Assembly (NCBI GenBank): GCA_019233375.1
Contig: JAFAMM010000083.1
Coordinates: 1 to 42,348 of the forward strand
Source of the DNA: Acidobacteriaceae bacterium
Lineage (GTDB): Bacteria; Acidobacteriota; Terriglobia; Bryobacterales; Bryobacteraceae
DNA length: 42,348 nucleotides
Direction: 5' to 3'
Positions 19,263 to 24,012 of the stretch are shown here, piece by piece. Within the stretch, counting starts at the first letter, position 1; each line of letters begins with the position of its first letter. Below the pieces are notes generated by a model, which ran no database searches, was not told the origin of the DNA, and saw only the letters and a list, made by a program, of their open reading frames with translations. Made by a program: the position numbers and the translations under genes.

Positions 19263-20344
19263 GCGAGGCGATGCCCTCGGCGCAGAGTGTTGCGATAGCC
19301 GGGGGCGGAATCATCGGGCTCACCATCGCATGGCGGCTGGCGCAACTTGGGTTGGCCGTTACGGTATACGACAAAGGTGCCCCCGGCGGTGAGGCTAGTT
19401 GGGCCGGCGCAGGAATGCTTGCTCCTGGTGGCGAGTTCGATGCCATCTCTGAGCTTGCGGCGCTTGCGCTTGAATCGCGACGGCTATATCCGGGGTTTGT
19501 CCGCAAACTCGAGGAGGCGTCGCGGCGGCCCATCGACTTTCAGGAACGCGGCGCCCTCGATCTGGCTTACTCTTCCGCCGAACTGGCGTCTCTGGAGAGC
19601 CGGGCGGCGGCCCAGCAGCGGCTTGGAATTCCTTCAAAGCCGCTCACGCCCTCGCAGGTCGCCACCTTCTGGCCGCACATCCGCAAGAGCAGCCTTGCGG
19701 GAGCGCGCTTTTACCGGCAGGACGCCATCGTGGATCCGCGCCATTTGGTGACAGCGCTGATGGAGGTCTGCCGCAAGTCCAACATAATACTGATGCCGGA
19801 TTGCCCCGTGGAGCGCGTTTCAGTGGGCGGAGCAGGGGTGCGGTTCCACACGTCGCAGGGAGTCTCCGATTGCGATTTCGCGGTCATTGCAGCTGGCGCG
19901 TGGAGCAGTTCCCTTGACGTGGAAGGGGTCCCAGCGCTTCCCCGCTGCGAGCCCGTCAGGGGACACCTGATTGCATATCAGCAGCCGGCTCACACCTGCG
20001 AGACGATTGTGCGCCACGGCCACACGTACCTGTTGCAGCGCGCCAACGGATTACTCATCGCGGGAGCCTCCGCCGAGCGGGTCGGATTCGTGCGGGACAT
20101 AGACCCCAGTGCAGTGGGCGCGCTCGCATCAGAGGCGAGTTTCGTGTTCCCACACCTGGCCGAAACAAGCCCGGCCGAGACCTGGGTTGGCTTTCGCCCG
20201 CTTAGCGATTCCGTGCATTTAGGAGCGTGGCACTCCCCGCGTCTTCTGCTAGCCTATGGCCATTACCGGAATGGCATTCTGCTGGCGCCGGTGACGGCGG
20301 CGCGCATTGCCGCGGCAGTCAATGCCAGTTCGCGAACGCAGTAG
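19259..20344 (+). CDS. thiO: glycine oxidase ThiO-like FAD enzyme
   Basis: FAD-dependent oxidase of the DAO family; ThiO turns glycine into the imine used to build the thiazole of thiamine. The 361 residues begin with the Rossmann motif VAIAGGGIIGLTIAWRLAQLG. GGEASWAGAGMLAPGGE is the block characteristic of ThiO, and PVRGHLIAYQ and WVGFRPLSDS are further family blocks. The end reads LLAYGHYRNGILLAPVTA. Start is GTG 19259, four bases overlapping the LysR stop. No other thiamine gene is in the window, so general D-amino-acid oxidation cannot be excluded. Its 3' end overlaps the convergent HipA-like gene by 26 bases. Confidence 0.87.
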   Translation: MSEAMPSAQSVAIAGGGIIGLTIAWRLAQLGLAVTVYDKGAPGGEASWAGAGMLAPGGEFDAISELAALALESRRLYPGFVRKLEEASRRPIDFQERGALDLAYSSAELASLESRAAAQQRLGIPSKPLTPSQVATFWPHIRKSSLAGARFYRQDAIVDPRHLVTALMEVCRKSNIILMPDCPVERVSVGGAGVRFHTSQGVSDCDFAVIAAGAWSSSLDVEGVPALPRCEPVRGHLIAYQQPAHTCETIVRHGHTYLLQRANGLLIAGASAERVGFVRDIDPSAVGALASEASFVFPHLAETSPAETWVGFRPLSDSVHLGAWHSPRLLLAYGHYRNGILLAPVTAARIAAAVNASSRTQ

Positions 20345-21152
20345 GCCGAGCCCGTCTTACCTCCTCAATCAGAGAAGGAACTCGGGCGCGCCTTTTAAGC
20401 AATTGCTCGAGCAAACGTTCGAGATCCGCGTCATCGTCTAGCAGCCACTGCCTCGGGATTCCCTTCCAGGCGGAATCAATCACCTCGACCGGGAAATTCT
20501 GCACCATTGCGAGCCATGGCTCAAACGAATCGAGCGCGGTGACTTCGTCATAAACTGTCGTCCGGAAGTACAGGCCGTGCCCCGGCGAATCATCAAAGGT
20601 CCAGTGTGGGCCGTTGAACGCGAAGCCGTGATCGATCATCTGGGCGAAGAAGCCGATGCGGGACGGTGCTTCTCCTTTGAGCGGCGTCCAGCCCTTTGCC
20701 TTGGCGCGGAAGAATACGGCCTGTCGCGAGTCGGCGTTGGCGGCCCATTTATCGAATACCAGGATTCCGAGGAAGTCAACCCGATTCTCGATCTTTCCGA
20801 GCAGCTTGTCTGGGAGAAAGTCGAACAGCGCGACCCGGTCGGGGTGGACAGCGAGCCTGGAGCCGAAATGAATCCCGGGTTCAGGCGGCTGGCGGGCGGA
20901 CCCCACGGACATGTAGAGATCCGGGTTGGCGGCGATGAACTCGGGCGTCAGCTCAATGAGCACGGTCTGCGGGACATGAATCTGCAGATAGCGAAGGAAT
21001 TCGCCTGCGAGCCACTCGTTGATCAAAATACGCCGGTGCTGCGGGTTGTTGACGAACTTCACGACATAGAATGCACCGTCATTGCCCTCCACCAGATGGG
21101 CCTGAGCGCCTCCCCGCATCTTTCTGATCAGACGATGAGCGCAAACCGGCAT
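20319..21152 (-). CDS. HipA-like kinase domain protein
   Basis: A 277-residue protein of the HipA-like kinase family (HipA_2 type) from ATG 21152; a TTG one codon upstream is also open. The N-terminal lobe has GAFYVVKFVNN (Lys33 as the ATP-binding lysine) and RILINEWLAGEFLRYL. The catalytic region is FLGILVFDKWAANADSRQAVFF, with Asp134, Asn139 and Asp141 as likely catalytic and metal residues. Unlike true HipA it lacks the N-terminal HipA domain and the glutamate-tRNA synthetase-specific insert. No small antitoxin (HipB) gene adjoins it, so a toxin role is not supported. Substrate unknown. Confidence 0.7.
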   Translation of the reverse strand: MPVCAHRLIRKMRGGAQAHLVEGNDGAFYVVKFVNNPQHRRILINEWLAGEFLRYLQIHVPQTVLIELTPEFIAANPDLYMSVGSARQPPEPGIHFGSRLAVHPDRVALFDFLPDKLLGKIENRVDFLGILVFDKWAANADSRQAVFFRAKAKGWTPLKGEAPSRIGFFAQMIDHGFAFNGPHWTFDDSPGHGLYFRTTVYDEVTALDSFEPWLAMVQNFPVEVIDSAWKGIPRQWLLDDDADLERLLEQLLKRRARVPSLIEEVRRARPTAFANWH

Positions 21153-21216
21153 CAAAAGAGGGCTAATGAGAGACTAGGGCTATAGCAAACGTCAGAAAAG
21201 GAGTTTTGACCCACGA

Positions 21217-21505: not shown

Positions 21506-22192
21506 CTACCGTCTGTTTTTCGCTGCCGCTTTCTTCCCGGACGACTTCTTGGGAGCGGTCTTTTTTGAGAAAGCGCCCTTTGCCGCCGTCTTTTTACCTG
21601 CTGCTTTCTTCGGTGCGGGTCTCTTCCCGGCGGCCTGCTTCGTTGCGCGTTTGGCAGCGGCTTTCTTTCCAGCGGCCTTCTTGGCGGTGGCTTTCTTCTG
21701 CCCGGCACCCTTGGAAGCAGTCTTCTTCGCCGCGGTTTTCTTTACGGGAGCAGCCGTCTTCTTCTGACGCGCGACGCTCTTCTTTGCTGGGGCGGATTTT
21801 GCCGCGGTTGGCGCTGACGCTGCGTTCGTGGCAGCCTGGGCTGCTGTTTTCTTTGTCCCGGGTGCGCTTGTCTTTCTTGCTGCCTTCTTTGCAGGCCTGC
21901 TTTCTTCGCCCGTGCGCTCGTGCTCGCCGCCATGCTCGGCCGCCGCTTCTCCCTCAGCATGCGCAGGACGCGCCGCAGTGGACGGCGCCTCGGCTTCCGC
22001 ACCTGTTTCGCGTTTACCGGTTTCCGCAGGCGACGTTACAACTATCTCGGCTTCTTCCTCTTCCTCCTCGAGTTCGTCGTCCTCATCATCGTCGTCATAT
22101 TCGTCTTTATCAGACTCCATCTCGACGTGTTCGTCCTCGTAATCGAAATCGTCGTCTTCCTCTTCTGGTCTTAGCCAGTAAGTCAGGCTCAA
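21506..22192 (-). CDS. charge-polarised protein: acidic N-terminus, histone-H1-like Lys/Ala C-terminus
   Basis: The start is placed at TTG 22192 because a perfect AGGAGG lies five bases upstream (22198-22203). ATG 22225 would add 11 residues but has no ribosome site. In the 228-residue form, residues about 10-50 are almost all Asp/Glu, 51-98 are a neutral Ala/Glu/Thr linker, and about 100-228 are a Lys/Ala/Pro tail. That tail is built from KKxA-type units, like eukaryotic histone H1 tails and bacterial AlgP/Hc1-type proteins. The basic tail should bind DNA or RNA without sequence preference; the acidic arm could fold back on it or bind basic partners. Codons vary within the tail repeats, so it is unlikely to be an assembly artefact. 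Confidence 0.75.
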   Translation of the reverse strand: MSLTYWLRPEEEDDDFDYEDEHVEMESDKDEYDDDDEDDELEEEEEEAEIVVTSPAETGKRETGAEAEAPSTAARPAHAEGEAAAEHGGEHERTGEESRPAKKAARKTSAPGTKKTAAQAATNAASAPTAAKSAPAKKSVARQKKTAAPVKKTAAKKTASKGAGQKKATAKKAAGKKAAAKRATKQAAGKRPAPKKAAGKKTAAKGAFSKKTAPKKSSGKKAAAKNRR

Positions 22193-22344
22193 GCACTCCT
22201 CCTTTCGCTCATCCTTACTATGCATCCAGATGAAGCGAGAAGCAAAATGATTTCACAACCTGCTGGCGAGCGCAAGCGCAAACTGGCCACGACACTATGA
22301 AGGTGAGCGGGCGCGGACCTTCCGACCTCAACAGATGAGGGGCG

Positions 22345-24012
22345 TTACTGAAGACTAGCTGTGCGGACCGCGGCTTTGCGATGCAGGATTTGTGCAGGAA
22401 CGCGTCGCGCGGAGGCCGCGTGAGTGCCGTGGGCGGAACTCGATTTATGTGTGAGCAACACTGCCGTGCTGTTCTTGCCGCGAGAGGTTGAATGGACCCG
22501 GCGAACAGCTGGCGCGTCTTCGTGATAGATGGCTGGAATCAGCAGTACGTCACCGGCCGAAAGCGAATCTGCCGCCTGATTGACCGCGACGATACGTTCG
22601 GGCGTGAGATGGTACGCTTTCGCGATGGCCGCAAGGGTATCGCCGGATTCCACTCGATGCAGCCGCCATGCTTGGCGGTTTTCCGCGGGGACAGTATCCA
22701 GAGCCGCCCGCGCGCTGTCGCCGGTACCCTTGGGCACGTGCACGTCATAGCCTGCGGGCGCCAGGGACCTGAGCAGGGCGGGATTGAAATCGCGTATCAC
22801 TGAGACGGGCTGCATCGTGGCATCCGCAATCAGATTCATGTTCGTGGGGGCGGCCAAATGCAACGTGTCGTACTCAGCCGGCGCATCGGTCTGAATGTTC
22901 TCAAGCCCGTAATCGCCGGGGTTCTTCGCCATGATCGTCATGGCGAGGATGATCGGGACGTAATTGGCCGTTTCCTTCGGCAGCGCATGACGCTTCAGCA
23001 GTTCCCAATAATCGGCGTAGCCGGTTCGCTCCACCGCCCGGTCCACCACGCCCGGTCCGCAGTTGTACGCCGCCATGGCGAGATACCAGTCGCCGTAGCG
23101 CGCATGCATGTCTTTCAGGTATTTCGCAGCAGCACGCGTCGCGACCTCGGGATCGAAGCGCTCGTCGAGGATGTTGTTGCGCGTGAGGTTGTAGTCTACG
23201 GCGGCAGCTGGAGTGAATTGCCACATGCCACCGGCACTCTTATAAGAGATGGCGCGGGGCAGAAATCCTGATTCCGCCTGTGCCAGATACAAAAGTTCCT
23301 GCGGCACGCCCTCCTCCGCGAAGACGCGCTGGATCATTGCTTTATACTTGCCGGCGCGCTGGAAGCCCTCCAGCAGGATTCGCCGGCCGCGATCGCTCGA
23401 GAAGTAATGAATGTAGCTCAGAACCGGATCAGAAAGCTCCAGTGGAATGGCCGACGCCGTCTGGTCCAGCTCGCCTTTGACTTTCCAAGCGAGACTCGGG
23501 TCCACTGGGAATGTCATGTGGCTGATCTCATCGATCGGCGCTTTGTCAAAGCTCACGACAGCGTCTTCCGTTTGCCCCGCTCCCAACTTTTCCACATCGA
23601 AGCGGTAGACCATGTCACAGATCTCGTCCAGTCTGCGCTCAATTCGTGTGTGATCCGGCAGATTATCAGGCGCAGTCAGCAGGGCATCGACCGCGGCATC
23701 GAACTCGCGGCGGGCGCCTTCCAAATCTCCCTCGAAGTACAGCTGTCGTCCTGCGTTGAAGTGGCTGTCGGCGCGCGCAATACGGTCATCGGTCTCGGGC
23801 GTGTGCGGGCTGGAACCGTCGAGACTTGCGGGCGCGGTAATCGAGCCATCGCCCAACGGCTCAGGGCGTGGGTCCGGGCTGCCGGCGACTGCTGCCGCAC
23901 TTAGGCCGATATTCAGTGCTGTAGAAGCGGGTTTCACCGCCGCGACTGTAACGTTTGGAGCGGAGGCGGCGAATACGAACCCTGCCATCAGGTAAAAGGT
24001 CTTAGAAATCAT
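22345..24012 (-). CDS. mltD: membrane-bound lytic murein transglycosylase D-like, with LysM
   Basis: Cuts the MurNAc-GlcNAc bond of peptidoglycan in the periplasm. 555 residues: a signal peptide (about 1-25, MISKTFYLMAGFVFAASA, no lipobox Cys), a long variable region (30-215), then a family-1 SLT domain. The SLT domain has catalytic Glu247 in YLAQAESGFLPRAISYKSAGGMWQF and the MAAYNCGPGVV block. One LysM domain (about 450-497, HRVESGDTLAAIAKAYHLTPERIVAVN) binds glycan, and a basic tail follows. E. coli MltD is a lipoprotein with two LysM units; this one is soluble or anchored by an uncut signal. The ATG at 24012 has no visible ribosome site and lies beside an inverted repeat. Confidence 0.92.
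   Translation of the reverse strand: MISKTFYLMAGFVFAASAPNVTVAAVKPASTALNIGLSAAAVAGSPDPRPEPLGDGSITAPASLDGSSPHTPETDDRIARADSHFNAGRQLYFEGDLEGARREFDAAVDALLTAPDNLPDHTRIERRLDEICDMVYRFDVEKLGAGQTEDAVVSFDKAPIDEISHMTFPVDPSLAWKVKGELDQTASAIPLELSDPVLSYIHYFSSDRGRRILLEGFQRAGKYKAMIQRVFAEEGVPQELLYLAQAESGFLPRAISYKSAGGMWQFTPAAAVDYNLTRNNILDERFDPEVATRAAAKYLKDMHARYGDWYLAMAAYNCGPGVVDRAVERTGYADYWELLKRHALPKETANYVPIILAMTIMAKNPGDYGLENIQTDAPAEYDTLHLAAPTNMNLIADATMQPVSVIRDFNPALLRSLAPAGYDVHVPKGTGDSARAALDTVPAENRQAWRLHRVESGDTLAAIAKAYHLTPERIVAVNQAADSLSAGDVLLIPAIYHEDAPAVRRVHSTSRGKNSTAVLLTHKSSSAHGTHAASARRVPAQILHRKAAVRTASLQ

Follow-up and report, generated by a model that had tools for sequence, protein, structure and literature searches.

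The gene described here lies in a 42,348-nucleotide stretch of an Acidobacteriaceae genome (assembly GCA_019233375.1, contig JAFAMM010000083.1; this whole stretch is referred to below as the window) and encodes a protein of two oppositely charged parts, an acidic arm with a conserved motif followed by a long, loosely conserved Lys/Ala-rich basic tail. It belongs to a family with one match per genome and a conserved gene neighborhood. The reading we favor, with a probability of about 0.5, is a linker-histone-like protein that condenses nucleic acid, in which the arm would compete in cis for the tail and would probably also dock a partner. The coordinates of the gene, its parts and its neighbors are collected in Table 1.

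Table 1. Features of the bipolar gene and its surroundings, in window coordinates.
Feature	Position	Strand	Basis or occurrence
Coding sequence, 228 aa plus stop, TTG start	21506..22192	-	Frame stays open up to ATG 22225
Acidic arm with linker, residues 1-97, 41 D/E and 6 K/R	21902..22192	-	Residue counts
Conserved arm motif, residues 15-32, DFDYEDEHVEMESDKDEY	22097..22150	-	Alignment of relatives, codon analysis
Histone-H1-like Lys/Ala tail, residues 98-228	21509..21901	-	Composition; HC2 match below cut-off
Shine-Dalgarno AGGAGG	22198..22203	-	5 nt 5' of TTG; similar in closest relatives
Conserved leader block TTGTGAAATCATTTTGCTTCT, 21 nt, possible promoter/5' leader	22238..22258	-	Comparison of upstream regions
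MltD-like lytic transglycosylase (SLT + LysM), upstream neighbor	22345..24012	-	In 73/80 loci
Convergent small conserved ORF, 75 aa	21217..21444	+	In 62/80 loci; precedes HipA_2 in 56
HipA_2-like kinase, downstream neighbor	20319..21155	-	Same strand, within 4 kb, in 67/80 loci

The initial annotation, made from the window alone, had described about 40 acidic residues in one block, some 130 residues of Lys/Ala tail and a strongly bipolar protein, and all three statements proved accurate, although of the 41 acidic residues in the arm and linker no more than 31 fall in residues 1-60. The translated tail (131 residues) comprises 36 Lys, 7 Arg (43 Lys/Arg together), 42 Ala, 9 Ser, 12 Thr and 8 Pro with no Asp or Glu. 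Charge segregation in the 228-aa form reached 78 units, whereas 10,000 shuffles of its residues averaged 17 and never exceeded 42; on a per-residue basis, the 239-aa ORF at 21506-22225 ranked first among the 102 window ORFs of at least 100 aa, the runner-up being a merely basic ORF split at residue 2. The same annotation had assigned a ribosome site to TTG 22192, and this was borne out: AAAGGAGG is located 5 nt ahead of that codon, and each of the 16 closest relatives has an ATG, GTG or TTG preceded by a Shine-Dalgarno-like sequence at the aligned place or within a few codons of it (the script that picked starts in relatives favored those with such a site). The protein alignable among relatives begins in the region of TTG 22192, and in aligned upstream sequences the frame from the earlier ATG at 22225 is stopped or lost in at least four of them (L053, L055, L060, L062). 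Translation thus likely starts at TTG 22192, as the relatives support, and the coding region would therefore be 21506-22192, within the given 21506-22225. AlphaFold2, run on single-sequence input, returned a mean pLDDT of 52.4 (low-confidence throughout), which, like the lack of a Pfam match over the cut-off, is weakly consistent with a disordered protein.

A whole-protein search found matches in 15 of 60 genomes at E ≤1e-4, the protein's own genome included, and an arm profile (A1) was built from the first 48 residues of 15 sequences. The profile matched 83 of 237 same-family genomes (30 of 76 genera), with a single match per genome; genomes lacking a match include three of the same genus, with a completeness of 62-78%. 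In a phylum-wide sample of 396 genomes, the only match at E ≤0.01 was the protein's own genome, and the other-family relatives discussed below came from position beside MltD or HipA_2, not from the profile. Eighty of the 83 matches were read, the window's own included and three weak ones (G175, G086, G205; E 0.005-0.01) left out, and a full basic tail was found in 78 of them. In L071 (G137) the arm is intact and the tail is shortened by an early stop; in L065 the tail is cut by the contig end. The acidic side carries a net charge of -14 to -44 (80 sequences) and the tail +20 to +73, and the protein as a whole is positive in 78 of 78 (+1 to +51). The comparison of repeat length proposed with the initial annotation gave tails of 67-244 residues (median 121.5, n = 78). 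Arm charge was correlated with tail charge (Spearman 0.45, n = 78, L065 and L071 left out; not adjusted for relatedness) but not with tail length (0.08). Since the profile is built from the arm, arm presence in the 80 profile matches is partly circular. Close relatives share the arm motif almost unchanged, and more distant ones keep the bipolar build at the same genomic place; the family is therefore judged real and conserved, and its sequence no chance product of low complexity.

A test of the arm that is independent of the profile was obtained from position. MltD flanks were read in 40 genomes, 20 of the same family (none among the 83 profile matches) and 20 of other families, using a criterion for the tail alone: a second half rich in Lys and in Ala/Pro, with no requirement for acid. 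In 31 of the 40 genomes this criterion selected an ORF distinct from MltD, lying downstream of it in the same orientation, and all 31 carried a net-acidic stretch (10-20 charges in 30 residues). Loss of the arm in all relatives, the outcome against which the initial annotation had set its reading, was therefore not what was found at this locus. A 32nd pick (G088, L177) was the basic end of MltD itself, had no acidic stretch (net 3) and was not counted. A second pass, which combined a looser tail rule with an acid requirement and read the HipA_2 flank where the MltD flank was empty, added one genome with the gene next to MltD (G524) and three with it next to HipA_2 (G115, G715 and, in divergent orientation, G660); the extra finds L181, L205, L207, L208 and L210 cannot test the arm because the search required tail and arm together. 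Both passes together placed a bipolar gene in 35 of 40 genomes (18 of 20 own-family, 17 of 20 other-family). It was not found in the MltD and HipA_2 flanks of the other five (G256, G088, G662, G688, G057), among which the kinase flank of G088 spans 900 bases only and G057 offers 1,041 bases only. MltD is likewise the neighbor of the gene in Granulicella (L017) and in L018, the latter with a short arm; a named relative, the Granulicella strain, thus has the same two-part build at the same genomic place. The arm profile was also compared with same-residue shuffles, standing out being defined as ≤10 of 200 shuffles scoring as well as the real N-terminus. Among same-family genomes, 14 more N-termini were examined in this way, namely L205, L210 and 12 of the 17 from MltD flanks; the profile stood out in 12 and did no better than shuffles in 2. 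The other 17 N-termini examined were 14 of the 15 from MltD flanks (all but L190) together with L207, L208 and L017, L018 being left out; here the profile stood out in 8 and did no better than shuffles in 9. With the test failing in some N-termini, only polarity and position are established across the class; on these comparisons, the motif belongs to the family, and polarity and position belong to the class.

The earlier description of the arm as a block of charge misses its conserved motif, which also holds Phe, Tyr, His, Val/Leu and Ser positions and reads DFDYEDEHVE[LM]ESDKDEY within the genus. Over the 18 motif codons of the 17 closest sequences (the window's included), pN was 0.06 and pS about 1, meaning saturated synonymous sites; saturation combined with near-zero amino-acid change indicates that selection acts on the protein, and from these codons the arm motif is judged to be under purifying selection. 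Alignment z scores against shuffles were 11-16 for the N-terminus in the 16 closest relatives (median 7.4 in 63 others), and for the tail -0.8 to 9.0 (the lowest being L065, with its cut tail) with a median of 3.5 in the 63 more distant relatives. The tail is conserved loosely and the motif at the protein level. Across 80 aligned rows, the motif keeps its final Tyr in 77, the Glu before it in 71, two Asp in 70 and 68, Phe in 68, two further Glu in 65 and 63, Ser in 61 (replaced in the other 19) and His in 60. As the motif keeps positions that are not acidic, their conservation suggests docking beside charge competition.

This conservation could be taken further, in an alternative that we consider possible though distinctly less probable than the favored reading: the tail would hold DNA and the motif would dock a cargo (RNA polymerase, a granule or the kinase), the whole acting as a tether with charge competition secondary. 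Retention of Tyr, Phe, Ser and His goes beyond what charge needs, and the published passages on CarD and on AlgP would supply precedents by analogy, CarD contacting DNA through an unfolded basic region and its partners through a separate domain, and AlgP/PhaF tying granules to the nucleoid. However, a search of solved structures with the arm profile gave 0 matches, and Pfam shows nothing in the present protein that would correspond to the N-terminal part of CarD or AlgP, folded or helical.

Comparison with known protein families located the protein near several of them. No entry of Pfam or NCBIfam passed its curated cut-off, and PADLOC returned nothing at E ≤0.1. HC2 (PF07382) scored 21.7 bits, or 32.3 bits in the genome search, against a gathering cut-off of 40 bits, and the Burkholderiales H1-like family NF038053 (hist_H1_lk_Burk) scored 16.3 bits against a cut-off of 80 bits; both are alike to this protein in tail composition, and the match covers the tail only. 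HC2 was the sole Pfam family listed at E up to 1, with neither the HU domain (PF00216) nor the CarD_CdnL_TRCF domain present, and RGRP AT-hooks are absent from the protein sequence. By its long Lys/Ala-rich, acid-free basic tail, the protein is of the broad H1-like tail kind. In the passages cited here, the mycobacterial HU protein HupB has a long PAKK/KAAK C-terminal tail that binds DNA and is needed for nucleoid binding (PMC5676037); it differs in having an HU domain, and those passages mention no acidic arm for it. HupS of Streptomyces can be grouped with HupB as an HU protein with an H1-like tail. AlgP likewise is described as binding DNA through a disordered Lys/Ala/Pro C-terminal region and as associating with polyP granules (PMC9239181). 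That type of region, which AlgP and PhaF of Pseudomonas share with this tail, is built of KPAA units in AlgP and follows a predicted helical N-terminal domain, not an acidic motif arm; the low-confidence single-sequence model of the present protein has no helix in residues 1-115. The mycobacterial protein HbhA, with Lys-rich repeats, is reported to be nucleoid-associated and to bind DNA, and the word "acidic" is absent from the main text of the source (PMC10665949). CarD of Myxococcus is described as having an acidic segment beside a disordered basic DNA-binding region (PMC4374960). Its RNA-polymerase-binding CarD domain and AT-hooks set it apart from the present protein. In CarD, an H1-like region can reportedly replace the HMGA-like one. 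For the arm, the precedent is the acidic tip of the Hfq C-terminal domain, which in the account cited vies with RNA for the basic core and keeps DNA from aggregating indiscriminately (PMC5606850). The likeness drawn here, an acidic disordered segment set against a basic partner, concerns proposed function. The acidic tail of HMGB1, and prothymosin alpha with H1, likewise set a disordered acidic segment in competition with nucleic acid for binding to a basic partner, and such oppositely charged disordered pairs that regulate chromatin binding are best known from eukaryotes. Unlike Hfq, HMGB1 and prothymosin alpha, this protein has both charges in one chain and no recognized folded domain. By their defining features it is a member of none of the named families, and by analogy it probably works like the known H1-like tails, with an acidic regulator. 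Among the matches listed in the literature search, no paper on this family was found.

The autoregulated linker-histone-like reading is favored because the tail resembles the DNA-binding tails of HupB, HbhA and AlgP in composition, because Hfq offers a precedent for the arm and because arm and tail charge are correlated. Such a protein would presumably be cytoplasmic, and probably binds and organizes DNA or RNA. Its Lys/Ala/Pro tail would bind nucleic acid through charge, without sequence specificity, and would tend to condense it; the acidic arm may fold back onto the tail as a nucleic-acid mimic, and when folded back could limit non-specific binding, speed exchange and prevent aggregation, with the aromatic-acidic motif probably docking a specific partner as well. 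The genome (4.79 Mb in 492 contigs) has three HU matches, all on other contigs; the bipolar protein would thus act in addition to HU, and the cell need not rely on it to package its DNA in general. With both charges in a single chain, a conserved motif in the arm and tails that vary naturally in length over the range given above, such a bacterial family would permit a direct test of how a built-in acidic competitor affects condensation of the nucleoid. A periplasmic or cell-wall role, suggested by the MltD neighbor, was set aside because no signal peptide is visible in the sequence (judged by eye, no predictor).

Action of the tail on ribosomal RNA, mRNA or polyphosphate instead of the chromosome, possibly with formation of condensates, seems unlikely to us; nothing seen in the tail would favor DNA above RNA or polyP, and AlgP, in the source already cited for it, associates with polyP granules, but the neighbors tested and found conserved comprise a transglycosylase, a kinase and the small ORF, not translation or polyP genes. 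The neighborhood was read in 80 loci, the window's included, with up to 4 kb per side. HipA_2 lies within about 430 nt in most loci and 1.9-2.9 kb away in two or three; of the 13 loci without it, 8 have <800 bases of downstream sequence and 5 have >3 kb. One of the 7 loci without MltD has only 279 bases of upstream sequence. In 11 loci lacking the small ORF, HipA_2 follows on the same strand at 22-261 nt (distance to the tblastn match). Relatives of the small ORF are 50-73% identical, and it had no Pfam or PADLOC match. Across the class, relatives of MltD occurred in 189 of 200 genomes and relatives of HipA_2 in 232 of 299. The two named relatives of the window's MltD, in the Granulicella strain and an Acidobacteria MAG, would likewise make an acidobacterial host probable. 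In PADLOC, the kinase of the window weakly matched the candidate PDC-M66A (E 1.5e-7, 28.9 bits).

Proximity to the kinase invites the idea that it phosphorylates Ser/Thr in the tail or motif and thereby toggles condensation, which is compatible with the linker-histone-like reading and which we rate as improbable, slightly below action on RNA or polyP. In most of the 80 loci HipA_2 is found downstream in the same orientation, it follows MltD within about 2.2 kb in 7 of 20 other-family genomes, and the bipolar gene adjoins HipA_2 and not MltD in 3 of the 40 genomes read by position (divergently in G660) and in G087. Residues K33, D135, N140, D142 and D175, which we take to be of catalytic type, are ≥95% conserved over 67 kinases, and the tail of the window protein is 16% Ser/Thr. 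Across relatives, however, median tail Ser/Thr is 5% and the minimum 0, the motif Ser is replaced in 19 of the 80 rows, HipA_2 is missing from the five loci with ample downstream sequence, and it lies >12 kb from MltD in three of the other-family genomes read (G721, G333, G524). Conserved gene order may be inherited and need not imply joint function. An equally improbable and broader proposal is a class-wide bacterial chromatin module, in which an H1-like tail with its own chaperone arm and docking motif would come under HipA-like kinase control, phosphorylation or docking freeing the arm and condensing the nucleoid, for instance in dormancy. A drifting, non-functional low-complexity ORF, for which only the low complexity and weak alignment of the tail would speak, is very improbable: each genome has a single match, the gene recurs at the same place in different families, its start region is conserved and, strongly against such drift, the codons point to purifying selection on the motif.

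Comparison of upstream regions bears on transcription of the gene. The leader block has 0-4 mismatches in the window and the 16 closest relatives and was not found in the other 63 loci (>6 mismatches, 260 nt searched). A scan for the sigma-70 consensus gave no site at the block, so a promoter there is only suggested. An operon with MltD is doubtful because in the window and these 16 relatives the conserved block separates MltD from the gene. In L050, L055 and L061, a hairpin followed by a T run is seen by eye between MltD and the gene, which suggests separate transcription. The MltD relatives themselves end in Ser/Lys- or Arg-rich basic tails (the window's copy; L017, 5743-7650; L018, 3363-5309).
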